A stretch of DNA of 64,000 nt from Leucobacter tardus (GTDB lineage Bacteria; Actinomycetota; Actinomycetes; Actinomycetales; Microbacteriaceae): contig NZ_JAGFBF010000001.1 in assembly GCF_017583045.1 (NCBI RefSeq), forward strand, positions 744,001-808,000, given 5' to 3'. Of the stretch, positions 12,198 to 64,000 are shown one piece after another. A program made the position numbers and the translations under genes. Positions within the stretch are counted from its first letter, which is position 1. Every line of letters starts with the position of its first letter. The notes beneath the pieces were generated by a model. The model ran no database searches. It saw nothing but the letters and a program-made list of their open reading frames with translations, and had not been told where the DNA came from.

Positions 12198-12288
12198 GGT
12201 GGGTTGTCCGAGCGGCCGAAGGAGCTTGTCTTGAAAACAAGTGGGCGGTAATCCCGTCCCGCGGGTTCGAATCCCGCACTCACCGCCA
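12198..12288 (+). tRNA. tRNA-Ser(TGA)
   Basis: The sequence folds as a class II tRNA. The acceptor stem GGTGGGT (12198-12204) pairs with ACTCACC (12278-12284), the discriminator base is G (12285) and CCA is encoded (12286-12288). The anticodon stem-loop CTTGT-CTTGAAA-ACAAG carries TGA, reading UCA-family serine codons. The long variable arm expected for tRNA-Ser (GTGGGCGGTAATCCCGTCCC region) and the GGTTCGAAT T-loop are present. Confidence 0.95.
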
Positions 12289-14275: not shown

Positions 14276-14365
14276 GGAGATATGCCGGAGCGGCCGAACG
14301 GACTTCACTGCTAATGAAGGGTCGGGGTTACTCGACCGGGGGTTCAAATCCCCCTATCTCCGCCA
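14276..14365 (+). tRNA. tRNA-Ser(GCT)
   Basis: This is a class II tRNA: the acceptor stem GGAGATA (14276-14282) pairs with TATCTCC (14355-14361), the discriminator is G and CCA is encoded at 14363-14365. The anticodon stem-loop CTTCA-CTGCTAA-TGAAG carries GCT, reading AGC/AGU serine codons. The variable arm (GGGTCGGGGTTACTCGACC) and T-arm (GGGGGTTCAAATCCCCC) are clear. Confidence 0.95.
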
Positions 14366-47365: not shown

Positions 47366-47402
47366 GTGTCCTCCTCGCGGTGTCGTGCGGCCCGTCTCCG
47401 CT

Positions 47403-48209: not shown

Positions 48210-48251
48210 GGGGTGTCCTCGGTCTGAGTGTGGTGGAGAGGGGATGAGGGC

Positions 48252-49607: not shown

Positions 49608-50431
49608 GCGGGCTCCTTCGTGCTCGTGGCGGAGGGCGAACGGTCGGTGGGTGCGGCGGCCGGGGATCCGGCCGAGGCGCCGTCGCGCGCGGCGCGGTAC
49701 TCGCGTGCGGCCGAGACGACGCCGGCGAAGAGGCGGCGATCCTCGGCGTACTCCTCCGGGTGCCACTGAACGGCGACACCGAACGGGACGGAGGGGAGCT
49801 CGACCGACTCGATGATCCCATCGGGGGTCCGGCTGGTGACGACGAGGTCGTCCGCGACGGTGCCGATGGCCTGGTGGTGGTAGAGAGGTGCGCTGGCGCG
49901 ACGGTCGTCGCCGAGCATCGCGGCGATGATCGTGTCGGGCTCGACCTCGATCTCGGAGGCGCCGAAGACGGCGGCGCCCGGCTGATACCGGGTGTCGCCG
50001 ACGATGTCGGGGAGGTGCTGGATCAGGTCGCCCCCGAGCGCCACGTTCAGGATCTGGGCACCGCGGCAGATGCCGAGGAACGGCAGTTCGAGCGCGATCG
50101 CGGCGTCGAGCAGCAGCGTCTCCCAGGCGTCGCGATCCGTGCGCGGGGCGCCGGTCATCGGGTGCGGATCCTGCCCGTACAGGGCGGGGTCGACATCTGC
50201 GCCGCCCGAGACGATGAGGCCGTCGAGCGCGCTGAGCACGTGCGTCGCGACGTCGGGAGTCGCCGGTTGAGGCGGCAGTAGGATCGCGACGCCGCCGACA
50301 TCGGTGACCGCGTCCATGTACACCTTCGGCAGGAACGAGGCGCGCACGTCCCACACCCCCGTCTGCGCCTGCTCGAGGTAGGTGGTGATGCCGATGAGCG
50401 GTGGCCGCTCGCTCGCACTAGAGACGCTCAA
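49604..50431 (-). CDS. Gamma-glutamyl-gamma-aminobutyrate hydrolase family protein (PuuD-like)
   Basis: This is a class I glutamine amidotransferase-like hydrolase of 275 residues. The nucleophile is the cysteine of PFLGICRGAQILNVALGG near residue 116, and the base is the histidine in VQWHPEEYAEDRRLF near 230. ISGGADVDP-like GLIVSGGADVDPALYG marks the family. In polyamine degradation PuuD removes the glutamyl group from gamma-glutamyl products. I place the start at a TTG (50431) because GGAGAGGA lies about 9 nt upstream. It overlaps the ligase stop by 14 nt and the aldehyde dehydrogenase start by 4 nt, so all three are coupled. Confidence 0.88.
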   Translation of the reverse strand: MSVSSASERPPLIGITTYLEQAQTGVWDVRASFLPKVYMDAVTDVGGVAILLPPQPATPDVATHVLSALDGLIVSGGADVDPALYGQDPHPMTGAPRTDRDAWETLLLDAAIALELPFLGICRGAQILNVALGGDLIQHLPDIVGDTRYQPGAAVFGASEIEVEPDTIIAAMLGDDRRASAPLYHHQAIGTVADDLVVTSRTPDGIIESVELPSVPFGVAVQWHPEEYAEDRRLFAGVVSAAREYRAARDGASAGSPAAAPTDRSPSATSTKEPA

Positions 50432-51788
50432 AGCCGCGGATCCTCTCCCAGTCGGTGATCGCCGCATCGAAGGCCGCCACTTCGATGCGCGCGGCGTGCA
50501 CGTAGTGATCGACCACTTCGTCGCCGAAGATCTCGCGGGCGATCGCGGACCGATCGAAGAGGTCGGCGGCCTCGCGCAGCGTCGTCGGCACCCGGTCGAC
50601 ATCGCTCGTGTAGGCGTTGCCGGTGAGCGCGTCCTCGAGCTCGAGCTCGTGCTCGATGCCGTAGAGGCCGGCAGCGAGCAGTCCCGACACGGCCAGGTAC
50701 TGGTTCACATCCGCGCCCGGCACGCGGTTCTCGACGCGCATCCCGTGGCCGCGGCCGACGACGCGCAGTGCGCAGCTGCGGTTGTCGAAGCCCCACGCGA
50801 CAGCGGTCGGGGCAAAGCTGCCGTCGACGAACCGCTTGTAGGAGTTGATGTTCGGCGCGTACAGCAGGGTGAACTCGCGCATGAGCTTCAGCTGCCCCGC
50901 GATGAAGTGCCGGAACATGGGGCTCATGCCGTCGGGGTCGTCATCATCGGCGAACACCGGAGCGCCGTGGAAGTCGCGCAGGCTCGCATGGATGTGGCAG
51001 CTCGACCCTTCGCGCTCGTTGAACTTGGCCATGAACGTGATCGACTTGCCGTGGGCGTCGGCGATCTCCTTCGACCCGCTCTTGTAGATCGAGTGATTGT
51101 CGCAGGTGTTGATGGCGTGCGCGTAGCGGAACGCGATCTCCTGCTGCCCGAAGTTGCACTCGCCCTTGACGCCCTCGTTGTACATGCCGGCGCCGTCCAT
51201 CGAGTTGCGGATGTCGCGAAGAAGGGGCTCCATTCGGGTCGACGCGTGGAGCGCGTAATCGATGTTGTAATCGCTCGCCGGGGTGAGGTCGTGGTACCGC
51301 TGCTTCCATGCCGACCGGTAGTCGTCGTCGAACACGATGAACTCGAGTTCCGTGGCGACGACGGGGGAGAGCCCCAGTTCGGCGAGGCGGTTCACCTGGT
51401 CGCGGAGGATCTGTCGCGGGGCGACGGGGATCGGCGTGTGGTCGGTGGCGCGCACGAGGTCGGCCATCACGAGGGCGGTACCCGGGATCCAGGGGGTGCG
51501 GCGGAGCGTGCCGAGGTCAGGGATCATCGCCATATCGCCGTACCCGCTCTCCCAGCTGGTGAGCGCGTACCCGTCGACGGTGTTCAGATCGACATCGACG
51601 GCGAGCAGATAGTTGCAGCACTCCGCGTGGCCCTCCATGACCTCCTCCAGGAAGAGGCGTGCCGAGACGCGTTTGCCCACGAGGCGGCCCTGCATGTCGG
51701 TGAACGCCACGATGACGGTGTCGATGTCACCGGCGCTCGCCGCGGCCCGCAGCTCGTCGGGTGTCAGGTTGCCGCTCTCAGGAATCAT
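50418..51788 (-). CDS. Glutamine synthetase family gamma-glutamyl-amine ligase (GlnA4/PuuA-like)
   Basis: The 456-residue protein has the glutamine synthetase fold: a beta-grasp N-terminal domain (FTDMQGRLVGKRVS), then the catalytic domain. Metal-binding ELEF is near residue 150, followed by an EGVKGECNFGQQEIAFRYAHA segment. The ATP site reads SITFMAKFNEREGSSCHIHAS, and NRSCALRVVGRGHGMRVENRVPGADVNQYLA contains the glutamate-binding arginines. GS-like proteins of this branch ligate glutamate to an amine and do not serve ammonia assimilation. In Streptomyces coelicolor GlnA3 acts on polyamines and GlnA4 on ethanolamine. The absence of an amine oxidase and the presence of an SDR favour an amino alcohol such as ethanolamine. 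The ATG at 51788 has GAGGAG upstream. Confidence 0.88.
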   Translation of the reverse strand: MIPESGNLTPDELRAAASAGDIDTVIVAFTDMQGRLVGKRVSARLFLEEVMEGHAECCNYLLAVDVDLNTVDGYALTSWESGYGDMAMIPDLGTLRRTPWIPGTALVMADLVRATDHTPIPVAPRQILRDQVNRLAELGLSPVVATELEFIVFDDDYRSAWKQRYHDLTPASDYNIDYALHASTRMEPLLRDIRNSMDGAGMYNEGVKGECNFGQQEIAFRYAHAINTCDNHSIYKSGSKEIADAHGKSITFMAKFNEREGSSCHIHASLRDFHGAPVFADDDDPDGMSPMFRHFIAGQLKLMREFTLLYAPNINSYKRFVDGSFAPTAVAWGFDNRSCALRVVGRGHGMRVENRVPGADVNQYLAVSGLLAAGLYGIEHELELEDALTGNAYTSDVDRVPTTLREAADLFDRSAIAREIFGDEVVDHYVHAARIEVAAFDAAITDWERIRGFERL

Positions 51789-51963
51789 CTGCTCTGGTCT
51801 CCTCGCTCGCCTTCGAGATCGTGGTCGACGTAATGGACGACCACTCGGCCATTAAAGCACAGAGTTCCGATGTGACGGAAGGTGCTCGGGCGAAGTGCGG
51901 ATGCGAGACCGTGCGGGGCGCACGGTCCGGTCACGATTCTGAGAGGCGGTATCGGCGCGGGGT

Positions 51964-51969
51964 TATACT
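51964..51969 (+). promoter_or_regulatory. -10 box of a likely leaderless LuxR-type sensor gene
   Basis: TATACT, the closest to consensus of all boxes in the window, lies 6 nt before the ATG at 51976. The gene is divergent from the gamma-glutamyl ligase operon, and the two promoters share 187 bp. Confidence 0.6.
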
Positions 51970-51975
51970 TCCGCC

Positions 51976-53715
51976 ATGGAGGAGCAGTTCCTCGTCGAGG
52001 TTGATGCGCTGGGTGCCGTTGTCTCCATTGAGTCAGGAGACATCGCGCGGGTTCCGAGTGCCCTCATGGCCGTCGGGGGCAAGATCGTCGACTCCGGGGC
52101 GTTCGGCGCGAAGTTCATCTGGCACCCCGACGGGCGCACCGGCCGCTGCATCGTGCAGGTCACGCGGGCGAACCCGTTCGTGGACCGCGGCGCGACGGCG
52201 TACGTGCAGGGTGAATGGGTGGATAACCTTCCTTTCGGTCTCACGGATCGTGAGCTCGACGTGCTCACCCTGCTGGTCCTCGGCATCTCCAGCGCGCACA
52301 TCGCGCAGAAGCTCTTCCTCGCCACGCGCACGGTGACGACGCACATCGACCGCGTGATGCGCAAACTGGGTGCGCAGAGCCGGACGGCCGCTGCGACGAT
52401 CGCGATGGACGAGGGACTGGTGCGGGTGCCCTTCCCTCATCTGCTGGACGATTCGACCGAGCTGCTCCGCATCGGCCGGATCCTGAGCGACACGCAGGCA
52501 CCGCCGGCGGCATCCACTCGTGTGACGCGCAAACCGCTCGTCATCGGAGCCGCGATCCCGGTGACCGGATCGAATGCCGCCGACGGCGCCGAGATGGTGC
52601 GCGCGAGCCAGCTCGCCATCGACGAGGTCAACGCCAGGGGCGGTGTGGACGGTCGGCGCGTGGCCCTGGACGTCGTCGACGTCGACATCATGGAACCGGA
52701 GAGCGTCTCCCGGTCGGTCAGCGCGTTGATCGAACGGGGCGTGGACGTGCTCACCTCCGGGTACCTGGCCCATCAGGAGCGCGCGCACGAGCTCGTCGCG
52801 GACAGCGGCATCACCTACCTGCACGCGGCGACGCTCGACGTCATGGCCAGACGGGTGAGCGAGGATCCGGATCGGTACGGCAACATCTTCCAGGTCTGCG
52901 CGAACGATTCGAACTATGCCCCTCGCTTCGTCGAGATGATGAGCCAGCTCCGCGATCGGCGGCAGTGGGCGCCCGCATCTCGTCAGCTCGTGGTGCTGCA
53001 GTCGGGGTGGACGACGACCGACCTCGGTCTCGCCGCGGCGGCATCCGACGCGGAACGCGACGGGTGGGAACTCGTCACGATCCGTCTGCCGGACGGCGAC
53101 GCGAGCCGATGGGCGCAGATCGTGCAGCAGGTGACCGCGATGGAACCGGCGGCCGTCATGATCGGCAACTACCTCGTCGACGACACGCTCGCATTCCTCG
53201 AGAGCTTCCTGTCGAGTCCGAGTCGCACGCTCGTGTACGCGCTCTACTCTCCGAGCGTGCCGGAATTCCGGGAGCGCATCGGGGCCCGCGGGGACGGGAT
53301 CCTCTGGGCGACGGTGACCGGCACCTACTCCGATCCGCGGGCCCGTGCATTCGCGAAACGGTACCGCGCCCGCTTCGGCGTCAACCCCGGGCGATCGCAC
53401 GCGGGCATCGCCTACGACCGCGTGCACCTCATCACGCAGGCGTGGGCGTTCGCCGAGAACCCCCGAGACCCGCGCCGTGTCTCGCAGACCCTGCGAGACA
53501 CCGTGTACCGCGGAGTGAACGGCGTGTACTACTTCGGTGACGCGTCCCAGACGACGCTGACCTTCCCGGGTCGCACCGCCGACCCGTCGCTCGGGCAGGC
53601 GCACCTGGTGTTCCAGATCCAGCAGGGCAAGCAGCGCATCATCGATCCGGCCCCCTACGCGGACGCGGCGTTCACCCTGCCGCCGTGGATGACGCCCGTC
53701 GTCGAGCGTCGATAG
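51976..53715 (+). CDS. One-component regulator: LuxR-type HTH fused to an AmiC-like periplasmic-binding domain
   Basis: The 579-residue protein has three parts. Residues 1-80 form a small beta-rich domain I cannot name. Residues 86-150 are a LuxR/FixJ-type HTH: LTDRELDVLTLLVLGISSAHIAQKLFLATRTVTTHIDRVMRKLG. After a linker, residues 185-560 form a type I periplasmic-binding fold of the branched-chain amino acid/amide group. Marks include PLVIGAAIPVTGSNAADGAEMVRASQLAIDEVNARGGVDGR, the VLTSGYLAHQERA segment and GRSHAGIAYDRVHLITQAW. It has no signal peptide or membrane helix, so the binding domain acts in the cytoplasm, as AmiC does in the Pseudomonas amidase system. It stands at the head of the acylase island and is divergent from the gamma-glutamyl operon, and probably switches one or both on when its ligand is bound. 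Confidence 0.85.
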   Translation: MEEQFLVEVDALGAVVSIESGDIARVPSALMAVGGKIVDSGAFGAKFIWHPDGRTGRCIVQVTRANPFVDRGATAYVQGEWVDNLPFGLTDRELDVLTLLVLGISSAHIAQKLFLATRTVTTHIDRVMRKLGAQSRTAAATIAMDEGLVRVPFPHLLDDSTELLRIGRILSDTQAPPAASTRVTRKPLVIGAAIPVTGSNAADGAEMVRASQLAIDEVNARGGVDGRRVALDVVDVDIMEPESVSRSVSALIERGVDVLTSGYLAHQERAHELVADSGITYLHAATLDVMARRVSEDPDRYGNIFQVCANDSNYAPRFVEMMSQLRDRRQWAPASRQLVVLQSGWTTTDLGLAAAASDAERDGWELVTIRLPDGDASRWAQIVQQVTAMEPAAVMIGNYLVDDTLAFLESFLSSPSRTLVYALYSPSVPEFRERIGARGDGILWATVTGTYSDPRARAFAKRYRARFGVNPGRSHAGIAYDRVHLITQAWAFAENPRDPRRVSQTLRDTVYRGVNGVYYFGDASQTTLTFPGRTADPSLGQAHLVFQIQQGKQRIIDPAPYADAAFTLPPWMTPVVERR

Positions 53716-53832
53716 CGCCCGGAATCTCGCCGCTGCACGAATACGTAGTTTTGACGATCCCCCGCGAGGGGCTCCGTTCCTAGCATGATCCCGAGTCCCC
53801 TCAACAGGGCGGGGGCACCGAACGGAGCGGAC

Positions 53833-54549
53833 ATGAACAGACTGCACGGGAAAGTCGCGATCGTCACCGGGGCGTCACGCGGGATCGGGGGCGCGATCGC
53901 CACCGCACTGGCGGCCGAGGGCGCCACGGTCGTCGGATGCGACATCCACGCGTTCACCTCTGAAGCGCTCGCCGAATGCCGTCAGCTCGACGTGACGGAC
54001 GAGGCGGGGTGGATGGACCTCGTGAACGCCGTCTCCGAAACCCACGGCGCCCCGCGGATCCTCGTGAACAACGCGGGAGTGACGTCGCCCGAGAGCATCA
54101 CCGAGACCTCGCTCGAACTCTGGGAGAGCATCACCGGTGTCGACCAGACGGGCGTGTTCCTGGGCATGCGCGCGGTGATCCCCGAGATGCGGGCCGCGGG
54201 CGGAGGATCGATCATCAACATCTCCTCGATCTGCGGGGCGGTCGCGGTGCCCGGTATCGCCGCGTACCACGCCGCGAAAGGCGCGGTGCGCACGCTGACG
54301 AAGAACGCGGCGGTGACCTACGCACCCGATGGCATCCGGGCGAACGCGATCCTGCCCGGTTGGATCGCCACCCCGATGACGGCGGGGCAGAGCGACGCGG
54401 TGAACGACGTCTTCTTGAACGCGACACCGCTCGCACGACCCGGAACACCGGAGGACATCGCCGGAGCGGTCGTATTCCTCGCCTCGGACGAGGCGGACTT
54501 CATCACCGGCGTCGACCTGCCCGTCGACGGCGGCTACCTGGCACGCTGA
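53833..54549 (+). CDS. Short-chain dehydrogenase/reductase, first of two in the island
   Basis: This is a 238-residue classical SDR. The TGASRGIGG coenzyme loop is near residue 13, NNAGVT near 80, and the triad is Ser in INISSICG with Tyr-Lys in AAYHAAKGAVRTLTKNAAV. It ends with the usual DLPVDGGYLA. The GCDIHA after the second strand suggests NAD+. The ATG at 53833 follows GGAGCGG; the in-frame start at 53785 lies in a GC hairpin and is less likely. It is 14 nt before a second SDR of the same size with about half identical residues, so the pair looks duplicated. The two may act on successive hydroxyls or different substrates. Confidence 0.87.
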   Translation: MNRLHGKVAIVTGASRGIGGAIATALAAEGATVVGCDIHAFTSEALAECRQLDVTDEAGWMDLVNAVSETHGAPRILVNNAGVTSPESITETSLELWESITGVDQTGVFLGMRAVIPEMRAAGGGSIINISSICGAVAVPGIAAYHAAKGAVRTLTKNAAVTYAPDGIRANAILPGWIATPMTAGQSDAVNDVFLNATPLARPGTPEDIAGAVVFLASDEADFITGVDLPVDGGYLAR

Positions 54550-54562
54550 TCGGAGGCCGACC

Positions 54563-55285
54563 GTGAAGAAACTCGAAGGCAAGGTCGCGCTCGTGACCGG
54601 TGCGGCGATGGGGATCGGGGCCGAGACGGCGAGAGTGTTCGCCGACGCGGGGGCCTGGGTCATCGCCTGCGACGTCGCTCCGTTCGATCAGCCGGGCTCC
54701 CTGTACATCGATCAGCGGCGTCTCGACGTCAGCGATGAGGCGTCGTGGGCCGAGGTCGTCTCGTCGGTGCTCGGCACGTACGGTCGCATCGACATCCTCT
54801 TGAACGCTGCCGGCGTGATCGGTTACGACGCCATCGATGCCCTCTCCCTCGCGGAGTGGAACCGCATCGTCACGGTGGATCAGACAGGCGTCTTTCTCGG
54901 CATGCGCGAGGTGCTGCCCGGCATGTGCGAGCGGGGAAGCGGATCGATCATCAACCTCTCCTCCGACTGGGGCGTCGTCGGCGGCGTGGGCGTCGCCGCC
55001 TACAACGCGGCCAAGGGTGCGGTGCGCTCGATGTCGCAGAACGCGGCGGTCACCTACGCGAAGCAGGGCGTGCGCGTGAATGCGGTGGTGCCCGGCTGGA
55101 TCCGGACCCCGCTCACCGACCGGCAGCCGGCGGACGCGAACGAGCGCGTCGTCGGGTCGACCCCCGTCGGCCACGGCGGGGAGCCCCGCGATATCGCTCT
55201 CGGGTGCCTGTACCTCGCATCGGACGACGCCCGATTCGTCACGGGGAGCGACCTCGTGATCGACGGCGGTTTTCTCGCGGTCTGA
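54563..55285 (+). CDS. Short-chain dehydrogenase/reductase, second of two in the island
   Basis: This is a 240-residue SDR with the coenzyme loop TGAAMGIGAE near residue 12, LNAAGVIG near 80, and SSDWG with YNAAK near 150. The VDQTGVFLGMR stretch is shared word for word with the gene before it, which supports duplication. The GTG at 54563 follows the first SDR by 13 nt, with GGAGG-like GATCGGAGGC upstream. The N of NNAG is replaced by L, a mild departure from the usual motif. It is probably an NAD-dependent alcohol dehydrogenase on the same pathway. Confidence 0.87.
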   Translation: MKKLEGKVALVTGAAMGIGAETARVFADAGAWVIACDVAPFDQPGSLYIDQRRLDVSDEASWAEVVSSVLGTYGRIDILLNAAGVIGYDAIDALSLAEWNRIVTVDQTGVFLGMREVLPGMCERGSGSIINLSSDWGVVGGVGVAAYNAAKGAVRSMSQNAAVTYAKQGVRVNAVVPGWIRTPLTDRQPADANERVVGSTPVGHGGEPRDIALGCLYLASDDARFVTGSDLVIDGGFLAV

Positions 55286-55318
55286 ACCGCACGACCACAC
55301 CACAGCAAAGGAGACACA

Positions 55319-56158
55319 ATGAGTTTGCAGCTTCCCGAAGGCAAGACGCTCGCGGTGAGCATCGGGGCCGACTTCGACGCCCACAGCGTCTGGATGGGGA
55401 CGTTCGGGCAGACGAGCCCCAGCGTGCTGTCGCGCGGCGAGTTCGGTGCCGAGGTCGGCGTTCCGCGACTGCTCGACCTCTTCGATCGGTACGCCGTGCG
55501 CGCGACCTGGTGCACGCCGGCGCACACCATGATGACGTTCACGGAGCGCTTCGAGAGCGTGCTCGACGCCGGGCACGAGATCGCGGCTCACGGCTGCTGG
55601 CACGAGCCGGTGCCGACGCTCGACGCCGACGAAGAGCGTCGGCTCATGGAGCGGACGCTCGAGAGCCACGAGAAGTTCGTCGGCAAGCGGCCGCGCGGCT
55701 ACCGTTCGCCGGCATGGGACTTCACCGACAGCACCCTGGGTCTGCTCGAGGAGTTCGGCTTCGAGTGGGATTCGTCGCTCATGGGTCGCGATTTCGAGCC
55801 GTACCACCCGCGTCCCGTCCAGATCGGCTGGGAGGAGGGCAGCACGTTCGGCGAGCCGAGCCCGATCCTCGAGTTCCCCGTCTCCTGGTATCTCGACGAC
55901 TTCCCGGTCGGCGAGTACATTCCCGGCTCAAACCCGGGACTCGGTTCGAGCGATGTCATGTTCCAGCGTTTCAAGGAGCACTTCGATTACGCCTACAAGC
56001 ACGTTCCGGGCGGAGTGCTGTCGATCACGGTCCACCCGCAGACGATCGGCCGGGCGCACCACATGATCGGGTTCGAGAAGCTCATCGATTACATGGCGTC
56101 GTTCCCCGGCACGTGGTTCGCGCCGCTCAGCGATATCTACGACACCTGGACCGAGTAG
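55319..56158 (+). CDS. Polysaccharide deacetylase/PuuE-fold hydrolase
   Basis: This is a 279-residue hydrolase of carbohydrate esterase family 4 fold without a signal peptide. Metal-site motifs are visible: the aspartate pair in IGADFDAHS near residue 17, HxxxH as AAHGCWHEP near 92, and the RSPAWDFTDSTLGLLEEFGF stretch with the catalytic-side arginine and tryptophan near 125. A final ITVHPQTIGRAHHM gives the late histidine. This order resembles cyclic imide hydrolase, HpPgdA and allantoinase-type (PuuE) members, which cut C-N bonds of small molecules inside cells. In this amide-rich island that reading fits better than chitin or peptidoglycan deacetylation. The ATG at 55319 has AAAGGAG upstream. 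Confidence 0.82.
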   Translation: MSLQLPEGKTLAVSIGADFDAHSVWMGTFGQTSPSVLSRGEFGAEVGVPRLLDLFDRYAVRATWCTPAHTMMTFTERFESVLDAGHEIAAHGCWHEPVPTLDADEERRLMERTLESHEKFVGKRPRGYRSPAWDFTDSTLGLLEEFGFEWDSSLMGRDFEPYHPRPVQIGWEEGSTFGEPSPILEFPVSWYLDDFPVGEYIPGSNPGLGSSDVMFQRFKEHFDYAYKHVPGGVLSITVHPQTIGRAHHMIGFEKLIDYMASFPGTWFAPLSDIYDTWTE

Positions 56159-56197
56159 CGGTCCGCGCCACCCCTCTTGAATACGAAGGAGTATTTC

Positions 56198-57244
56198 ATG
56201 AACACCCGATCCCGATCAGCGCTGCTCGCGCTCCTGGCAGCGGGGGCGCTGCTGCTCACCTCCTGCTCGAGTCCGAGCCAGGAAGCCGCCGAGAGCACCG
56301 AATCCGAAGCCTCGGGAGCGCAGCCCGAGACGACCATCGCGTCCGTCGATGAGCTGAAGGTCGCCTACTTCTCGGCGGGCAGCAGCAACCAGTATCTGCA
56401 GGCCGCCATCGATGAGGCGAAGACGTACGCGGACGAGCAGGGTTTCGACCTCGACGTGTTCGACGGCGAGTTCGACGCGCAGGTGCAGTTCGACCAGATG
56501 CAGACGGCATTGACGAGCGGCAAGTACAACGCGTTCGCCGTCGAGCCGAACGACGGCAACCTCGTGTGCAACCTGCTGACGCAGGATGCCCCCGCCGCCG
56601 GCGTGATGGTCGCCGTGTTCAACCTGCCGATCTGCGGCAGGGCCGAGAACCTCGGCGAGGAGACGTGGGAGCCCGGCACGGTGAACTACGTCGGCGGGCA
56701 GACCGCTGACGTGTATCAGCAGTGGGTGGAGCAGGTGAAGCAGGACTACCCGGACGGAGCGAAGATCGCACTGCTCTCGGGCCCCGACTTGAACGCCAAC
56801 AGCATCGTCTTCTTCGAGGCCGCGAAGGCATTCGGCGATGGGCCCTGGGAGATCGTGGCGCAGCAGAGCACCGACTACACCACGGCGCAGGCGTTCCAGG
56901 CCGCGCAGACCTTCATGCAGGCGAACCCCGATCTCGACATCGTGATGTCGAACTTCTCCGGGATGACCCGCGGAGTCGTGCAGGCCACAGCCGGATCCGA
57001 CGTCGCGGTGTACGACTTCGGCGGGGACGAGTGGGCGCTCGAGAACGTGAAGGCCGGCGAACTCGCCTCGAGCATCATCATGCTGCCGCGGCAGGAGACG
57101 AAGTACGCGCTGCAGGGGTTCGTCGATCTCGTGAACGGCGAGGAGACGCCGAAGTTCGTGAACCTCACCGAGCTCGACATGCTGCCGGGCGGCACACCGT
57201 TCGTGACGCCGGACAACGTCGACGAGTTCACCGCGGAGTACTGA
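56198..57244 (+). CDS. CUT2-type ABC transporter substrate-binding lipoprotein
   Basis: This is a 348-residue extracytoplasmic binding protein with a lipoprotein signal (LLLTSCSS, acylated cysteine near 27). It has a ribose-binding-protein-like type I fold: DELKVAYFSAGSSNQYLQAAIDEAKTYADEQGFDL opens the first lobe. NYVGGQTADVYQQWVEQVKQ and AVYDFGGDEWALENVKAG follow. The start is the ATG at 56198 with GAAGGAG ahead; the TTG at 56177 is rejected. It is the first gene of a complete ATPase-permease importer. The CUT2 class takes up sugars, autoinducers and related polar molecules, so the ligand here is open. Confidence 0.9.
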   Translation: MNTRSRSALLALLAAGALLLTSCSSPSQEAAESTESEASGAQPETTIASVDELKVAYFSAGSSNQYLQAAIDEAKTYADEQGFDLDVFDGEFDAQVQFDQMQTALTSGKYNAFAVEPNDGNLVCNLLTQDAPAAGVMVAVFNLPICGRAENLGEETWEPGTVNYVGGQTADVYQQWVEQVKQDYPDGAKIALLSGPDLNANSIVFFEAAKAFGDGPWEIVAQQSTDYTTAQAFQAAQTFMQANPDLDIVMSNFSGMTRGVVQATAGSDVAVYDFGGDEWALENVKAGELASSIIMLPRQETKYALQGFVDLVNGEETPKFVNLTELDMLPGGTPFVTPDNVDEFTAEY

Positions 57245-57307
57245 GCCTGACGCAGCCGAGGGGTCGCGATCCGCGGCCCCTCGGATCCACGACGACGTAA
57301 GGGACGA

Positions 57308-58819
57308 ATGATGAGCAGTGAGACGCACGAGGCGATCGTGTGCCAGGCGGTCTCGAAGAAGTACTCGGGCAAGTACGCAGTGCACCGGGCGGACCTGCAC
57401 GTGCGGGCCGGCACCATCCACGCTCTGGTGGGCGAGAACGGAGCGGGCAAGTCGACGCTCCTCGGCATGATCTCCGGTCGGGTCGCGCACGACGAGGGCA
57501 CCATCTCGGTCTTCGGCGACGACCTGCGCGCCGCGGGTCCGCGGGACACGCGGGATCACGGGCTCATGGTCGTGTACCAGGAGCTCACGATGATCCCGGC
57601 GCTGACCACGGTGCAGAACGTGTTCCTCGGTCAGTCGAAGTCGAAGCTCGGGGTGCAGTCGGATCGCGAGATGCGGGAGCGCTACCTCGAGCTCTGCGCG
57701 GAGTTCGGTGTGCGGATCGATCCCGATGTGCCGGTGCGTCAATTGTCGATCTCGCAGCAGCAGATCGTCGAGATCATGCGCGGGGTGCAGGCGAACGGCC
57801 GGATCCTCATGCTCGACGAGCCCTCAGCGGCGCTGGCCGAATCGGAGCGCGAGGTGCTGTACCGCATCCTGCACCAGCTGCGGGAGAACGGAACGACGAT
57901 CGTGTTCGTCAGCCACAACCTCAATGAGGTCCTGGCGCTCAGCGATCACGTCACGGTACTGCGCGACGGTGAGATCGTCGCGAGCGGCGCTCGCGCGGAG
58001 TGGGACAAGGCGTCCATCGTGCGGGCGATGGTCGGCAAGGATGCCGCGATCGTCCGCCGCGATGCGCGCCACGAACTGGGATCGACGGCCATCGAGATCA
58101 GCGATGTGCAGCTGAAGGGCGCGCTGCACGACATCACCCTCACCGCCAGGGAGGGGGAGATCGTCGGCCTGTGGGGGCTGGTCGGCTCGGGGCGGACGAC
58201 GTTCTTCCGTTCGCTCTTCGGCATGATCCCGCGCTCCAGCGGCCGGATCACGATCGGCGGACGCCGCGTACGCTGGCCCAGGTCGGCCCGGCACGCCATC
58301 CGCGCCGGGATCGCGATGGTGCCCGAGAGCCGCAGAGCGGCGCTCGTCATGGGCATGGACAGCGCCGCGAACTACTGGCTCGGCCGCCGGCCACCGGTGC
58401 CGTTCCTCGTGTTCCCGCGACGCGAGAAATCGGCGGTGGCCGAGTACGGCGAGTTCTTCGGCTTCAGCGCGAAACGCATGGCGGACCCGGTCGGCACGCT
58501 CTCCGGCGGCAACCAGCAGAAGGTGCTCCTCGCGAAGTGGGCCGGCCGCCGGCCCCAGCTCCTCCTCGTCGACGAACCCACTCGGGGGATCGACGTGGGG
58601 GCGAAGGTCGAGGTGCTCGAGTCGCTCACGCGACTCGCGTCGGAGGGGACGACGGTCATCGTCACCTCCTCCGAGCTCGAGGAGGTGCTCGCGGTCTGCG
58701 ACCGCCTCCTGGTGTTCGCGCACGGCCGGATCGTGCACGAGTTCGACACCGCGACGAGCGAATACTCGGTCGAGCAGATCGTCAAGTACGGATTCGAAGA
58801 AAGCGAAGCAGCAGCATGA
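57308..58819 (+). CDS. CUT2-type ABC transporter ATPase (double cassette)
   Basis: This is a 503-residue ATPase with two nucleotide-binding domains in one chain, as in RbsA/XylG. The first cassette has Walker A GENGAGKSTLLG near 42, a Q-loop VVYQELTM, the signature VRQLSISQQQIVEI and Walker B ILMLDEPSAAL. The second has a degenerate Walker A GLVGSGRTTFFRSLFG (Gly-Arg-Thr, the usual weak form), then signature LSGGNQQKVLLAKW and Walker B LLLVDEPTRGIDVGAKVEV. The ATG at 57308 has GGGA upstream. Its last codons overlap the permease start (ATGA). Confidence 0.93.
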   Translation: MMSSETHEAIVCQAVSKKYSGKYAVHRADLHVRAGTIHALVGENGAGKSTLLGMISGRVAHDEGTISVFGDDLRAAGPRDTRDHGLMVVYQELTMIPALTTVQNVFLGQSKSKLGVQSDREMRERYLELCAEFGVRIDPDVPVRQLSISQQQIVEIMRGVQANGRILMLDEPSAALAESEREVLYRILHQLRENGTTIVFVSHNLNEVLALSDHVTVLRDGEIVASGARAEWDKASIVRAMVGKDAAIVRRDARHELGSTAIEISDVQLKGALHDITLTAREGEIVGLWGLVGSGRTTFFRSLFGMIPRSSGRITIGGRRVRWPRSARHAIRAGIAMVPESRRAALVMGMDSAANYWLGRRPPVPFLVFPRREKSAVAEYGEFFGFSAKRMADPVGTLSGGNQQKVLLAKWAGRRPQLLLVDEPTRGIDVGAKVEVLESLTRLASEGTTVIVTSSELEEVLAVCDRLLVFAHGRIVHEFDTATSEYSVEQIVKYGFEESEAAA

Positions 58820-59835
58820 ATGACCAGCGCACGGCGTCTGTTCCGGCCACCGGAGCCACGCCGAAAGTATCGGACGGCTCGGCGGGCGGAAATCGCTCGA
58901 TCGGCTCCTTCGCGGCGAAGTACGGCATGCTCGGCGCACTCGTCGCCCTCATCGTCGTGGCCACCATCATCTATCCCGGCTTCCTGAACCCCGCCAATAT
59001 CGGGAACATCCTCACGCAGAACGCCGCGGTCGGGCTGATCGCGATCGGCATGACCTTCGTCATCATCAGCGGCGGGTTCGACCTCTCGGTCGGCGCGACG
59101 TACGCGCTGGGCGCCACGCTGTTCGCCGGCCTCACGCTGCAGACGGGATCCGTGTTCATCGCCGGCATCGGCGCGCTCGCCGCGGGCCTGATCGCGGGCG
59201 CGATCAACGGGTTCATCGTCGCCAGGCTGGGGGTGAACCCGTTCGTCGCGACGCTCGGCACGTCGTCGGTGTTCAGCGGTGTCGCGTACATCTACTCGAA
59301 CTCGTCGCCGTTCATCGTCAACGGCAATCCGGCGTTCCAGGACCTCGCGCTGACGCGGATCGCCGGGGTGTTCCTGCCCATCTGGGTGCTGATCGTGGCC
59401 TTCATCCTCGCCGCGCTGCTCCTCGCGAAGACCACCTACGGCCGCAACGTGTACGCGGTCGGCGGCAACTACGAGGCGGCGTGGCTCTCCGGGCTGCGCG
59501 TGCGCGGGCTGAACGGAAGCGTCTACCTGATGACCGGGGTGCTCGCGGCACTCGCCGGCATGATGGACGCCTCGCGTCTCGGCGTCGGTCAGGCGGACGT
59601 CGGCGCGGCGATGGCGCTGGATGCGATCGCGATCGTGGTCGTCGGCGGCACGTCGTTGCGCGGGGGCGAGGGAGCGATCTGGCGGTCCGCCGTCGGCCTC
59701 CTCATCCTTGCGACGCTGACGAACGTCTTCTACAGTCTGAACGTCTCCCAGCACTGGCAGCTCATCGCGAAGGGTGTCATCGTGGTGACCGCGGTGGCCG
59801 TCGACGCGGTCATCCGCTCACGGAAGCGAGGATGA
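58816..59835 (+). CDS. CUT2-type ABC transporter permease
   Basis: This is a 339-residue membrane permease of the RbsC/XylH family with eight to ten membrane segments. Typical stretches are NIGNILTQNAAVGLIAIGMTFVIISGGFDLSVGATYALG, GFIVARLGVNPFVATLGTSSVFSGVAY and TTYGRNVYAVGGNYEAAWLSGLRV (the EAA-type coupling loop), with GGEGAIWRSAVGLLILATLTN near the end. The ATG at 58816 overlaps the ATPase stop by 4 nt, and its stop overlaps the acylase start (ATGA). One permease presumably forms a homodimer. Confidence 0.93.
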   Translation: MNDQRTASVPATGATPKVSDGSAGGNRSIGSFAAKYGMLGALVALIVVATIIYPGFLNPANIGNILTQNAAVGLIAIGMTFVIISGGFDLSVGATYALGATLFAGLTLQTGSVFIAGIGALAAGLIAGAINGFIVARLGVNPFVATLGTSSVFSGVAYIYSNSSPFIVNGNPAFQDLALTRIAGVFLPIWVLIVAFILAALLLAKTTYGRNVYAVGGNYEAAWLSGLRVRGLNGSVYLMTGVLAALAGMMDASRLGVGQADVGAAMALDAIAIVVVGGTSLRGGEGAIWRSAVGLLILATLTNVFYSLNVSQHWQLIAKGVIVVTAVAVDAVIRSRKRG

Positions 59836-62195
59836 TCATGACCCGAGCGCAGGACACGTCGGATATCGCGTTCACGGTTGCCGGGCTGCGGGCGTCCGTG
59901 GAGATCCGCATCGACCACTGGGGCATCCCGCACATCGTCGCGGAGGACCGGGCGGATGTCTTCGTCGCACAGGGGTTCAACGCCGCGCGGGATCGCCTCT
60001 TCCAGATCGATCTCTGGCGACGACGCGGGCACGGCAGGCTCGCGGAGGTGTGGGGTGCGGCAGCGGTCGAGCAGGATCGCGCCAACCGCCTCATGCTGTA
60101 CCGCGGCGAGATGGAGGCGGAGTGGGCCGCGTACGGACCCGGTGCGCGCGCGGCCATCGAGGCGTTCGTCGTCGGCATCAACGCCTATGTCGCGTGGGCC
60201 AGAGACGACACGGATCGTCTGCCGCCCGAGTTCGCGGTTCACGACTACCTGCCCGATTTCTGGAAGGCCGAGGATGTGGTCCGATTCCGGACCCACGGGC
60301 TCTTCTACAACGTGGAGCAGGAGATCGCCCGCGCGCAGACGCTGGTCGCCGGCGGGGAGGTGGCCGATGAGCTCCGCCAGAAGCGGGAGCCCGCGCACCC
60401 GAGACAGGTGCCGGAGGGCGTCGACCTGACCGAGTTCACCGAGGAGATGCTGCGCACGTACCGGCTGGCGTTCGCTCCTGCCGCCTTCGCCGAGGCTGCG
60501 GCCCCGGAGTCCGCGGTCGAGGGCGTGAGCGGCAGCAACAACTGGGTGGTCGACGGATCGCGCACCAGCACGGGCCGCCCGATCCTGGCCAATGACCCCC
60601 ACCGTGCGATCACGCTGCCGTCGCTGCGCTACCTCGCGCACCTCCGCGCGCCGGGACTCAACGTCGTCGGTGCGGGTGAGCCCGGACTGCCGGGCATCTC
60701 GATCGGTCACAACGAGACGCTCGCCTTCGGCCTCACCATCTGGCCGGCCGACGTGGAGGACCTGTACGTGTACCGGTGCGACGACACCGGCGCGGGCGAC
60801 TACGTCGGCCCCGACGGGCCCGCGCGCTTCGCAACGGTCGAGGAGACGATCGGCGTGCGCGGCGCCGAGGATGCGACGGTGACCCTCGCGTTCACCGTGC
60901 ACGGGCCGGTGATCCACGTCGATCACGATCGTGGCATCGTGATCGCGCTGCGCGCCGCGTGGCTGGAGCCGGGCATGGCGCCGTACGTCGCCAGCCTCGG
61001 CTACGGCGACGCCCCCGACGGCGAGAGCTTCATCGCCGCACTCGAGCACTGGGGGGCTCCCGCCGTGAACCAGGTGTTCGCCACGGTGGACGGCGACTGG
61101 GGGTGGCAGGTCGCCGCGAAGGTGCCGCGACGCGACGGGTGGGACGGGAGTCTCCCGGTGCCGGGCACGGGCGCGTACGAGTGGCGCGGTCTCGTGGGCG
61201 CGCCGGAGCTGCCCGGAGAGCGGCGGCCCGAGCGCGGCTGGATCGCGACGGCGAACGAGTGCAACCTGCCCGAGGACTGGATCGATCGCGGGATCACGGC
61301 GACCCACGACTGGTATTCGGACGCCCGGGCACTGCGGTTGCGGGAATGGCTCGAGACGGACGACCGGGTGAGCGTCGCCACGTCGGACCGGATGCAGAAC
61401 GACTTCCTCAGCGTCCACGCGCGCGCCGTTCTCGCGAACCTCGCAGCGGTGCGCGTCGAGGACCCGCGTGTCGACGCTGAGCTGACGCGACTGCGCGACT
61501 GGAGCGGGGTCGAGAGTGTCGACTCCCGCGAGGCGCTCGTGTTCGAGATCTGGGTGCGCAGGCATCTCAGGCCCGCCACGATGCGGGAGCGGCTCGCCGC
61601 CGAAGGGGTGCCTGCAGAGCGGATCGACGCGGTACTGCCGCTCGTGCTCAAGGACGAGTCGTTCGGGGGCGACCTGCGCGGCGACCTCAGCGTGACCGCG
61701 TGGCTGGGAGCGCACGTCGATGGCGCGCGTGTCGCCGCGATCGTGGAGCGCACCCTGTGCGCTGCGCTCGATGAGCTGGAGCAGATGCTCGGGGCTGAGA
61801 CCGAGGCGTCGCCCTGGTCCTGGGGGCGTCTGCACCACGCGTCCGTCACCCATCCCGCTCTGGCGGTGACATCGACGTTGCCAGCGGAGTGGGTGCGTCA
61901 GGGGCCGATCCCGCGCGGCGGGAGCGGTGACACGGTGGGCAACGCGGGGTACGACGCCGCGTTCCGGCAGTCGATCGGGTCGACGTTCCGCATGGTGCTC
62001 GATGTCGGAGACTGGGACCGGAGCGTGGCCATGAACAGTCCGGGTCAGAGCGGCGACCCGCGGTCGGAGCACTACGGCGATCTCTTCGCCGGGTGGGCGG
62101 AGGGCGAGAGCTTCCCGCTGCTGTTCTCGGACGAGGCGATCGCCCAGCACACCGCGCAGGTGATCCGGCTGCACCCGGACGAGGAGGTCGTATAG
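59832..62195 (+). CDS. Penicillin-acylase-family Ntn hydrolase, probably cytoplasmic
   Basis: This is a 787-residue member of the penicillin amidase/acyl-homoserine-lactone acylase family, which cleaves amide bonds after self-processing into two chains. The N-terminal part contains VEIRIDHWGIPHIVAEDRADVFVAQGFNAARDRLFQ. The autocatalytic site is GVSGSNNWVVDGSRT near residue 230-245, where Ser (in GSNNWVV) is the nucleophile that becomes exposed. IWPADVEDLYVYR and the VHGPVIHVDHD segment follow. It has no signal peptide, unlike the periplasmic enzymes, so its substrate must be imported, probably by the ABC system just upstream (its start overlaps the permease stop). Which start (ATG 59832 or 59838) is used is open. 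Candidate substrates are N-acyl amines, N-acylethanolamines, AHLs or beta-lactams. Confidence 0.88.
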   Translation: MIMTRAQDTSDIAFTVAGLRASVEIRIDHWGIPHIVAEDRADVFVAQGFNAARDRLFQIDLWRRRGHGRLAEVWGAAAVEQDRANRLMLYRGEMEAEWAAYGPGARAAIEAFVVGINAYVAWARDDTDRLPPEFAVHDYLPDFWKAEDVVRFRTHGLFYNVEQEIARAQTLVAGGEVADELRQKREPAHPRQVPEGVDLTEFTEEMLRTYRLAFAPAAFAEAAAPESAVEGVSGSNNWVVDGSRTSTGRPILANDPHRAITLPSLRYLAHLRAPGLNVVGAGEPGLPGISIGHNETLAFGLTIWPADVEDLYVYRCDDTGAGDYVGPDGPARFATVEETIGVRGAEDATVTLAFTVHGPVIHVDHDRGIVIALRAAWLEPGMAPYVASLGYGDAPDGESFIAALEHWGAPAVNQVFATVDGDWGWQVAAKVPRRDGWDGSLPVPGTGAYEWRGLVGAPELPGERRPERGWIATANECNLPEDWIDRGITATHDWYSDARALRLREWLETDDRVSVATSDRMQNDFLSVHARAVLANLAAVRVEDPRVDAELTRLRDWSGVESVDSREALVFEIWVRRHLRPATMRERLAAEGVPAERIDAVLPLVLKDESFGGDLRGDLSVTAWLGAHVDGARVAAIVERTLCAALDELEQMLGAETEASPWSWGRLHHASVTHPALAVTSTLPAEWVRQGPIPRGGSGDTVGNAGYDAAFRQSIGSTFRMVLDVGDWDRSVAMNSPGQSGDPRSEHYGDLFAGWAEGESFPLLFSDEAIAQHTAQVIRLHPDEEVV

Positions 62196-62205
62196 TGCGC
62201 TTCTT

Positions 62206-62219
62206 TGGTCGAATGACCA
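62206..62219. promoter_or_regulatory. TGGTC-GAAT-GACCA operator-like palindrome
   Basis: TGGTC and GACCA form a perfect 5-bp inverted repeat with a 4-nt centre, the TGGT...ACCA shape typical of GntR/FadR-type operators. It lies 11 nt after the acylase stop and about 200 nt before the permease. A GntR regulator (such as that of the gamma-glutamyl operon) could act here. Confidence 0.45.
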
Positions 62220-62304
62220 TCCTTTCGTGTGCGTAGCCCCCCGCCATTGAGGGGCCTCAGAAGCGAGAATCACGTTTCGCGCGTGTGAAATCAACAAGAA
62301 AAGG

Positions 62305-62335
62305 TTGCGCAAACCTACCTTTGCAGGGTTATAGT
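62305..62335 (+). promoter_or_regulatory. Promoter of the ethanolamine-permease-like gene
   Basis: TTGCGC (62305-62310) and TATAGT (62330-62335) are separated by 19 nt, and TTATAG one base earlier gives 18. The inverted repeat AGGTT-GCGCA-AACCT (62302-62316) covers the -35 region and could be an operator. The transcript would have a leader of about 75 nt. Confidence 0.5.
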
Positions 62336-62417
62336 CACCTCGTGCGGCTTGCACCCGTGAACCGCACGCGAGGACCTCGGCCCTCGGTTTCACGACGATG
62401 TGGAAGGTTCACTGCAC

Positions 62418-64000
62418 ATGGCCAAGGACACCCTCCGCGTGAGCGGGGTCACGTACACCACCGCCGACAGCGGTTACTTCGAGAAGCGGACGCTCAAACG
62501 CGCCGCGGGCATCTGGGGCCTTTGGGGCCTCGCCGTCGGTGCCGTGATCTCCGGAAACTTCTCCGGCTGGAACTTCGGGATCGACGCGGCCGGCTTCGGC
62601 GGCATGCTCATCGCCTTCGCCGTACTCGTGGTCATGTACTACGGCCTCATCTTCTCCATCGGCGAGATGGCGTCGGCCATGCCGCACACGGGTGGCGCAT
62701 ACTCGTTCGGCCGAGCGGCACTCGGCCCGTGGGGCGGGTTCGTCACGGGCCTCGCGGAATCGATCGAGTACGTGGCGACGACCGCCGTCATCGTGTATTT
62801 CTCCGCGTCCTACGCCGACAGCATCACGAGCGAGCTGCTCGGATTCTCGCTCCCGGCGTGGGCGTGGTGGCTGATCCTCTACGCCCTCTTCGTAGCCCTG
62901 AACACCGCCGGAGCGAACGTGTCGTTCAAGTTCGCGATCATCGTCTCGATCATCTCGATCGCCATCATCCTGTTCTTCTCGGCGATGGCGCTCTTCAGCG
63001 GTCAGTTCGTCTGGAACTCGCTGTTCGACATCGCCCCGGATGCGGGGCAGACCGCCTTCCTGCCGCACGGCGTCATGCCGATCCTGTTCGCCCTGCCGTT
63101 CGCCATGTGGTTCTTCCTCGGGATCGAAGAGCTGCCACTCGCGGCGGAAGAATCGCACAACCCCGTCCGCGACATCCCGCGCGCCGGGCTCTGGGCCAGG
63201 GGCACCCTCATCATCACCGGTCTGCTCGTCCTCTTCCTGAACACCGGCGTCATCGGCGCCGAAGCCATGGGCGTCTCTGAAGAGCCCCTGCTCGACGGCT
63301 TCCGCGCCATCGTCGGCGACCAGGTCGCCGCCGTGCTCGCGCTCTTCGCGCTCATCGGACTCTTCGCGTCGCTGCAGGGCATCATGTTCGCCTACGGCCG
63401 CAACATGTACTCGCTCTCACGCGCCGGGTACTACCCGCGGTTCCTCTCGTTGACGGGCAAGCGCTCGACCCCGTGGGTCGCGCTCGCCGCCGGAGCCCTC
63501 ATCGGGTTCGCCGCGCTCGTCGTCGTCGACTTCGCCGGCGGCGCGGACGGGGTGGCAGGCGCCATCGTGCTGAACATCGCCGTCTGGGGCGCCGTGCTCG
63601 CCTACTTCATGCAGATGGTGTCGTTCATCGTGCTGCGTCGCAAGTTCCCGAACGCGAAGCGCCCCTACCGCAGCCCGTGGGGGCTCTTCGGAGCGTACGC
63701 GGCCGCGGCGATCGCGGCGGTGACGTTCGTCGGCTTCCTGCTGAACGAAACCTTCCAGCCCGCCATCATCGCGATCATCATCGTCTACGTGATCGGCCTG
63801 CTCATCTTCGGTCTGTACGGGCGACACCGGCTCATCCTCTCCCCGGAAGAGGAGTACGCGGTCTCGGGTGGTCTGCACGGCGATCCGCAGCGCGAAGGAT
63901 ACGGCGGCGACGTCGAGGAGCAGATCCTCGCCCTCGACGGCGTGGACGGACCGCAGACCCCCGCCGGCGGGCCGGGCGCCGCGACCGCGCCGCCGGAGAC
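62418..64000 (+). CDS. APC-family permease, ethanolamine-permease-like (3' end outside window)
   Basis: The frame is open from the ATG at 62418 to the window end with no stop (527 codons seen), so the gene is cut at the right edge. The N-terminal region YFEKRTLKRAAGIWGLWGLA, then VGAVISGNFSGWNFGIDAAG, resembles the ethanolamine permease (Eat) branch of the APC superfamily. It continues with FSIGEMASAMPHTGGAYSFGRAALGPWGGFVTGLAESIEYV, again like Eat. Twelve membrane segments can be made out, and a hydrophilic acidic tail follows near residue 480. Its place after the acylase island and near a GlnA4-like ligase operon supports amino-alcohol uptake, but transport specificity cannot be proven by eye. 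Confidence 0.8.
   Translation, partial: MAKDTLRVSGVTYTTADSGYFEKRTLKRAAGIWGLWGLAVGAVISGNFSGWNFGIDAAGFGGMLIAFAVLVVMYYGLIFSIGEMASAMPHTGGAYSFGRAALGPWGGFVTGLAESIEYVATTAVIVYFSASYADSITSELLGFSLPAWAWWLILYALFVALNTAGANVSFKFAIIVSIISIAIILFFSAMALFSGQFVWNSLFDIAPDAGQTAFLPHGVMPILFALPFAMWFFLGIEELPLAAEESHNPVRDIPRAGLWARGTLIITGLLVLFLNTGVIGAEAMGVSEEPLLDGFRAIVGDQVAAVLALFALIGLFASLQGIMFAYGRNMYSLSRAGYYPRFLSLTGKRSTPWVALAAGALIGFAALVVVDFAGGADGVAGAIVLNIAVWGAVLAYFMQMVSFIVLRRKFPNAKRPYRSPWGLFGAYAAAAIAAVTFVGFLLNETFQPAIIAIIIVYVIGLLIFGLYGRHRLILSPEEEYAVSGGLHGDPQREGYGGDVEEQILALDGVDGPQTPAGGPGAATAPPE

Follow-up and report, generated by a model that had tools for sequence, protein, structure and literature searches.

In the nicotinate catabolism of Aspergillus nidulans, HxnW, HxnM and HxnN are described as an NAD-dependent dehydrogenase, a cyclic imidase and an amidase, and HP0310 is given as the closest structure to HxnM (available part of PMC9304392). 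A second described system, the Streptomyces glnA4 cluster, holds genes for a short-chain dehydrogenase (SDR), an aldehyde dehydrogenase, GlnA4, a regulator, a putative ethanolamine transporter and a glutamine amidotransferase, with a proposed route leading from ethanolamine over gamma-glutamylethanolamide and gamma-glutamylglycine to glycine and glutamate (available part of PMC6529630). Genes resembling parts of both are found side by side in the window analysed here, a stretch of 64,000 nucleotides of Leucobacter tardus (contig NZ_JAGFBF010000001.1, positions 744,001 to 808,000). It carries an eight-gene island on the + strand (51976-62195 of the window; open reading frames and Pfam), which is inserted beside predicted genes of ethanolamine use. 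We propose, tentatively and with slightly less than even confidence, that the island serves to import a small nitrogen compound, to open an imide and to cleave the product inside the cell, freeing ethanolamine.

Gene content, insertion and distribution of the island

The genes follow one another in the order REG, SDR1, SDR2, PDA, SBP, ATP, PERM and ACY, and none of the eight contains an internal stop.

51976-53715, +: REG, regulator with an N-terminal part lacking a domain assignment, a LuxR-type helix-turn-helix and a LivJ/urea-binding-like type I periplasmic-binding-protein sensor (Pfam; PDB 3h5l, E 2.6e-56; model)
53785-54549, +: SDR1, short-chain dehydrogenase (Pfam)
54563-55285, +: SDR2, paralogue of SDR1 with 51% identity (Pfam)
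55319-56158, +: PDA, CE4/NodB-fold hydrolase of the HP0310/cyclic-imidase group, predicted cyclic imide hydrolase (Pfam Polysacc_deac_1; PDB 3qbu, E 1.6e-51)
56177-57244, +: SBP, lipoprotein-like, RbsB-like (CUT2) binding protein (Pfam Peripla_BP_4; ribose-binding protein in PDB, E 2.1e-13)
57308-58819, +: ATP, CUT2-type double ATPase (Pfam, two ABC_tran stretches)
58816-59835, +: PERM, CUT2-type permease (Pfam BPD_transp_2)
59832-62195, +: ACY, signal-less S45/Ntn acylase, D-succinylase-like (Pfam Penicil_amidase, E 1.8e-188; PDB 7eby, E 2.4e-164)
51866-62298, no strand: inserted island, the stretch lacking at the empty site of Leucobacter genome G011 (alignment to locus L103)
53742-53747, no strand: TACGTA palindrome, candidate operator in the REG-SDR1 gap (sole copy in the window)

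The initial annotation had described tightly spaced genes behind a fusion regulator, with duplicated SDRs, a complete CUT2 importer and an acylase whose start overlaps the permease stop, and open reading frames and Pfam matches agree with it on all of these points. The intergenic distances from REG to ACY are 69, 13, 33, 18, 63, -4 and -4 bp, the last two being 4-bp overlaps at the ATP-PERM and PERM-ACY junctions; the ATG of ACY at 59832 overlaps the TGA of PERM at 59833-59835. Binding protein, double ATPase and BPD_transp_2 permease are all present. By inspection the N-terminus of SBP is lipoprotein-like (LLLTSC), with the ATG at 56198 as the likelier start. The Asp at the end of strand beta-2 in SDR1 presumably points to NAD.

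The island is an insertion. Window positions 46635-51865 align to L103 13815-8591 and positions 62299-63979 to L103 8558-6878, and the empty site of G011 has 32 bp where the window carries about 10.4 kb. The flanks are close in this genome, with 92% identity for the glutamine synthetase (GS)-like gene and 96-98% for the APC permease gene. In Leucobacter ruminantium the island fills about 10.6 kb, and locus L104 has 190 bp there, between APC and the riboswitch-gcvP stretch.

A scan of genome contigs for ACY yielded 42 loci; one of six exact peptide patterns was required, so that distant members were missed. Genes in fetched loci were called by a codon-usage script, which missed some (e.g. around ACY in L028), and Pfam was applied to chosen neighbour genes. 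The complete eight-gene set, in identical order and strand, was detected in two of the 42 loci, from L. ruminantium (L015) and Nakamurella leprariae (L001). Because the same order recurs in both, the island is more than a chance assembly, and the initial annotation, which would have been contradicted by a gene order kept in no relative, holds here. Compared with the window, L. ruminantium and N. leprariae show respective identities of 57 and 54% for REG, 70 and 68% for SDR1, 70 and 73% for SDR2, 84 and 86% for PDA, 82 and 73% for SBP, 71 and 68% for ATP, 86 and 80% for PERM and 65 and 57% for ACY. PDA is thus the best conserved protein between window and Nakamurella. On its upstream side, the Nakamurella island is accompanied by a minus-strand SAM-IV riboswitch (L001 609-719).

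The distribution of the island is rare and patchy. ACY was found in 15 of 199 genomes (E<=1e-60, the window's own included), with more than 60% identity only in the window's genome and the congeneric G031; of the other 13, the neighbourhoods of G112 and G070 were inspected, and the remaining 11 show 31-37% identity. Searches for PDA at E<=1e-60 found it in 10 of the 394 genomes sampled from the class, 6 of the 398 from the family and 2 of the 17 from the Nakamurella family; at E<=1e-80 it was found in 2 of the 396 from the order. The class, order and family samples include the window's genome. In both PDA and SDR2 the window is slightly nearer to Nakamurella than to L. ruminantium, whereas the flank GS is 88% identical between window and L. 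ruminantium, which hints at separate acquisitions. This stays unproven, since REG, SDR1, SBP, ATP, PERM and ACY are closer within Leucobacter than to Nakamurella.

Ethanolamine genes beside the island

The genes on both sides of the island, which had gone unmentioned in the initial annotation, form a predicted ethanolamine-to-glycine locus, within which the island is inserted.

47403-48209, -: flank SDR (homology)
48252-49607, -: flank aldehyde dehydrogenase (ALDH; homology)
49604-50431, -: flank gamma-glutamyl hydrolase (GGH), peptidase C26 type (homology)
50418-51788, -: flank GS-like ligase, predicted gamma-glutamylethanolamide synthetase (Pfam; gene set as in the Streptomyces glnA4 cluster)
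62400-63998, +: flank APC permease, ethanolamine permease type, extending to the window edge, with the ATG at 62418 as likelier start (TIGR00908, 323 bits, cut-off 381.75)

This prediction is made by analogy: SDR, ALDH, GS-like ligase, amidotransferase-type hydrolase and permease correspond to the glnA4-type set as given in the legend of Fig. 2 in PMC6529630. A polyamine function of the flank was first considered from the GS and C26 genes and set aside on the glnA4 gene set, eutBC and the neighbouring glycine-cleavage (gcv) genes. The flank GS was found in 27 of 54 genomes of the genus (E<=1e-150; the window's and G031 included), and 12 of the other 25 GS-bearing Leucobacter loci were fetched, all of them island-free. 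Eight of the 12 show the order SDR0-ALDH-GGH-GS, a divergent APC gene and then gcvP-gcvT-gcvH, in several cases with glyA and sdaA; L105 and L106 have the same landing-site genes in another arrangement. APC is present in 11 of the 12 (absent in L111), as is gcvP (absent in L103). Since glycine-cleavage genes are adjacent, glycine would fit as the product of the flank. Tandem glycine riboswitches precede gcvP in both gcvP loci tested (L015 and L104). In the window's own genome, gcv genes were unmatched within about 14 kb past APC (L133). An Rfam search of window positions 40000-64000 gave no match.

Predicted ethanolamine genes adjoin the island in all three genomes, each time in another arrangement. 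In the window it sits between the GS-like and the ethanolamine-permease-like genes, in L. ruminantium between the APC permease and the gcv genes, and in Nakamurella a gap of 26 bp separates ACY from the EutB (E 1.8e-201) and EutC (E 4.9e-78) genes that come next, this EutB being the one copy found in that genome. EutBC and the gamma-glutamyl route are two different ways of using ethanolamine. Because the island is docked to such genes in three different ways, ethanolamine release suggests itself; that the island yields ethanolamine is the plainest shared cause of the three dockings and, like the identity of the amine, moderately supported by these gene neighbourhoods.

In the Leucobacter genome G047 a different cassette occupies the same landing site (L111 10403-17483), between GS and gcvP and with APC missing; it comprises genes for a FAD monooxygenase, a CUT2 SBP, an Amidohydro_3 protein, an ATPase, a permease and a cupin. 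Together with the islands of the window and L. ruminantium, this suggests that various cassettes of importer and amide hydrolase land in the ethanolamine locus of Leucobacter. Elsewhere in the window, two tRNA-Ser genes with anticodons tga and gct were located at 12198-12288 and 14276-14365.

The acylase, the imidase-type hydrolase and the regulator

ACY covers positions 1-674 of the 675 of the PF01804 profile and is thereby a member of the S45 superfamily. Its best PDB match is the D-succinylase 7eby (552 bits, residues 14-782), followed by glutaryl-7-ACA acylase with 152 bits and penicillin G acylase with 127 bits. The AlphaFold model (mean predicted local distance difference test score, pLDDT, 83.6) superimposes on 7eby with a TM-score of 0.89 and a root mean square deviation of 2.9 at 41% identity. 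On sequence and model, ACY is closest to the D-succinylase branch and not to the acylases of N-acyl homoserine lactones (AHLs) or penicillin. All 13 aligned proteins share G234, S235, H257, R258, Y267 and N475; G234 and S235 would form the Gly-Ser processing site, Ser235 is the predicted beta-chain nucleophile, and N475 we take to be the catalytic Asn equivalent to beta-241 of S45 acylases. A second PF01804 protein of the window's genome (L043, G000 C5:753498-755906, 756 bits) is encoded outside the island.

The initial annotation had set ACY apart from the periplasmic penicillin and AHL acylases as a cytoplasmic enzyme coupled to an importer. In agreement with this, no signal peptide is seen by inspection in its N-terminus (MIMTRAQDTSDIAFTVAGL), the first modelled strand starting at residue 11, and the complete CUT2 set is kept together with a signal-less ACY in three genomes. 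A tree of 43 rows, with three partial rows left out, places ACY in an eight-row actinobacterial clade with support 100/99 (window, L015, L001, L002, L003, L075, L126 and L076); an N-terminal signal was not evident on inspection in seven members, L126 not being judged. Within this clade PDA lies near ACY in five of eight cases, REG in four and an ABC importer in five. Relatives from Saccharopolyspora and Phenylobacterium have signal-like N-termini, stand outside the clade and have PDA and REG unmatched in their loci. Some signal-less relatives also have importer genes nearby: of Dpp type in Frigidibacter, of CUT2 type in Mesorhizobium, of Opp type in another Microbacteriaceae genome, and in Acidisoma a family 5 binding protein alone. 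In G112 (L075 94-11185) a CUT2 importer beside ACY has a PDA gene on either side, and genes for an amidohydrolase, a class III aminotransferase and a GS-like protein are also present. In Actinomycetospora (L003 6993-17902) REG is divergent from genes for a luciferase-like monooxygenase, ACY and GS-like, GATase, GXGXG, glutamate-synthase-like and DAO proteins; ACY there precedes GS-like and glutamate-synthase-like genes of the N-methylglutamate type, another amine-using set.

PDA is closer to HP0310 (3qbu) than to true polysaccharide deacetylases: other PDB matches include 3rxz, named polysaccharide deacetylase (E 3.7e-34), PuuE (1.2e-14) and PdaA (4e-4). D18, D20, H91 and H95 are invariant (14/14), and D20, H91 and H95 are the counterparts of the HP0310 metal ligands Asp14, His86 and His90. 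We compared 22 distinct PDA loci, L015 and L074 counted once and the window left out. ACY is in the neighbourhood of PDA in five of them (L001, L015, L028 with PDA at 33% identity, L075 and L126) in four different settings, a CN-hydrolase directly adjoins PDA in another five (L071, L072, L073, L080 and L081), and a gamma-glutamyltranspeptidase does so in one (L077) and also in L130. ACY and a PDA-adjacent CN-hydrolase never occur together. Such interchangeable second enzymes fit a logic of imide opening followed by half-amide cleavage, on which half of the loci are silent. Other hydrolases beside PDA are Amidohydro_1 in L082 and M20 in L125. L077 (4815-11690, G213) and L130 (6135-15066, G1174) combine PDA and gamma-glutamyltranspeptidase with one or more SDRs, ABC genes and a Peripla_BP_6-type binding protein (by Pfam for L077 alone), the same formula with another Ntn hydrolase.

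REG joins a GerE domain (residues 89-143) to a Peripla_BP_6 domain (188-522), both by Pfam; its model has a pLDDT of 70 and 3h5l as best PDB match. TACGTA stands in the REG-SDR1 gap in all three islands and occurs once in each of the window (1.11 expected), L015 and L001. However, it is missing from the REG-bearing loci L003, L080 and L081, and the copy in L071 is far from REG, which leaves TACGTA as a candidate operator at most. The inverted repeats upstream of REG differ among the three islands.

Proposed pathway, rival explanations and described systems

The reconstruction that follows draws on the observed genes, their order, insertion, neighbours and enzyme families; all of its enzymatic steps, as well as amine and substrate, are inferred. 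The island would be a horizontally acquired catabolic cassette in which REG, sensing a small ligand of amide or imide type, activates the SDR1 promoter. SBP, ATP and PERM would take up an intact small compound, possibly a cyclic imide, hydroxylactam or half-amide carrying an N-(2-hydroxyethyl) group. SDR1 and SDR2 may carry out a stepwise oxidation, e.g. of a hydroxylactam to the cyclic imide as by Aspergillus HxnW, after which PDA would open the ring to a dicarboxylic half-amide. The cytoplasmic, D-succinylase-like ACY would split this into the dicarboxylate and a free primary amine, ethanolamine, which would enter the host pathway, by gamma-glutamylation to glycine in Leucobacter and by ethanolamine ammonia-lyase in Nakamurella. 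In favour of this pathway, the nearest relatives of ACY, D-succinylase and then glutaryl and cephalosporin acylases, are enzymes of dicarboxylic half-amides. The imide route, whose chemistry and substrate are conjectural, is the best mechanism on offer and is put forward tentatively. A more far-reaching claim appears possible, if rather doubtful, to us: a mobile amine-release cassette dedicated to N-hydroxyethyl imides or hydroxylactams, with a CE4-fold imidase and a cytoplasmic S45 acylase standing in for the usual imidase/half-amidase pair, that has repeatedly been plugged into whichever ethanolamine pathway its host possesses.

Several observations weigh against the imide pathway. There is no activity or ligand on record for any of the eight island proteins, HP0310, for which no activity is known either, acted on none of the compounds tried, among them allantoin (available part of PMC3084791), and no N-hydroxyethyl imide pathway turned up in a search of open-licence PMC papers, screened by titles and abstract starts. 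The PDA family also includes the PuuE allantoinase and proteins without assigned substrate; in 11 of the 22 PDA loci PDA is adjoined by none of the three second enzymes, and this sample is biased, three loci coming from the ACY scan and ACY occurring in two of the other 19. PDA and REG are both unmatched in 38 of the 42 ACY loci, some of them on short contigs, and near a close ACY relative in Modestobacter PDA, REG and ethanolamine genes are unmatched. The dockings are three cases, of which both Leucobacter ones may derive from a single insertion and local rearrangement. The APC permease stays below its TIGR00908 cut-off, GS also matches polyamine-ligase models below cut-off, and SDR1 just passes the cut-off of 215 of a 'glucose 1-dehydrogenase' subfamily with 216.3 bits. 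Base composition gives no hint of foreign origin, the G+C content and third-position GC (GC3) of the island genes resembling those of the flanks.

Four other explanations were weighed. PF01804 enzymes cleave N-acyl amides, and with ethanolamine neighbours in all three genomes ACY could free ethanolamine directly from a polar N-acylethanolamine, the SDRs and PDA treating the acyl part or a side group and no imide being involved. We regard such a salvage as unlikely: it leaves unexplained both the top conservation of PDA between window and Nakamurella and the CN-hydrolases beside PDA homologues, and a CUT2 importer speaks against fatty acyl chains. Somewhat less probable again is the release of another small amine, such as a polyamine, methylamine or several, with the neighbouring GS-like operon as a general gamma-glutamylamine pathway. 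The weak match of GS to a gamma-glutamylputrescine synthetase model (192 bits, cut-off 650) and the N-methylglutamate-type genes after ACY in Actinomycetospora would suit it; yet EutBC beside the Nakamurella island indicates ethanolamine, an SDR is present in the flank, where the four genes scanned include no amine oxidase, and glycine-cleavage genes adjoin it in 11 of the 12 fetched relatives, fitting a glycine product.

We rate lower still the idea that the island encodes a pathway for a sugar, polyol or ureide, with PDA acting as deacetylase or ureidase on a compound of sugar-like or ureide type and ACY taking off an acyl cap. The CUT2 importer with its RbsB-like SBP, the similarity of PDA to PuuE (TIGR03212, 70 of 425 bits) and the 1.3 bits by which SDR1 exceeds its subfamily cut-off point that way. 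In the available text of PMC3084791, however, polysaccharides have no access to the active site of HP0310, and by Pfam the island has no kinase, isomerase or aldolase. No listed sugar-transporter model reaches its cut-off, the best matches being AraG with 420 of 689 bits, AraH with 217 of 378 and RbsB with 37 of 337 (for the ATPase among the best 25 of 189 families); a known sugar locus, which the initial annotation had named as an outcome that would overturn it, was set aside on these transporter scores in spite of the narrow pass of SDR1. AHL or beta-lactam breakdown, as quorum quenching or resistance, has the PF01804 membership of ACY in its favour and is very improbable. ACY scores 44 bits on the PvdQ model (cut-off 950), D-succinylase is far closer than the glutaryl-7-ACA and penicillin G acylases, and the cytoplasmic location and ethanolamine neighbours do not fit; hydrolysis of these compounds was ruled out on family scores and the structure match. 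Among the substrates first suggested, the ethanolamine part and the cyclic imide have each gained independent support, and AHL and beta-lactam drop out.

The imide pathway would join the so far poorly assigned HP0310-type CE4 hydrolases, D-succinylase-type acylases and LuxR-periplasmic-binding-protein fusion regulators in one testable pathway, which is predicted to give N-hydroxyethyl imides or half-amides a new way into ethanolamine metabolism. If true, the mobile amine-release cassette gives the D-succinylase branch a physiological role. The families themselves are already known; their combination and place beside ethanolamine genes did not come up in searches of the open-licence PMC literature, covered mostly as titles and abstract starts. 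The view that no described system has this exact set stands to that extent, but the pairing of an importer with a signal-less acylase is found elsewhere too.

With the D-succinylase of Cupriavidus sp. P4-10-C (7eby), ACY shares the S45 Ntn fold over its full length. The Cupriavidus enzyme differs in acting on D-amino acid derivatives, presumably N-succinyl-D-amino acids, and in its longer N-terminus, the match beginning at residue 39 of the PDB sequence. HxnN is, to our knowledge, not known as an S45 acylase. In the Hxn set a dehydrogenase makes a cyclic imide, an HP0310-related imidase opens it and an amidase finishes the half-amide, and the island has the same order; by the available account the Hxn system is fungal, releases ammonia from an unsubstituted imide, has no importer cassette and is not an ethanolamine route (PMC9304392). 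The Streptomyces glnA4 cluster resembles the flank in SDR, ALDH, GS-like ligase, permease and glutamine amidotransferase-type hydrolase, whereas its figure legend names no importer, imidase or acylase (PMC6529630). The short eut operons of actinobacteria (eutBC and eat), as far as described in the available part of PMC6529630, carry a transporter that takes up free ethanolamine and lack a cassette for its release from amides; the Nakamurella island, in turn, leads directly into eutBC.

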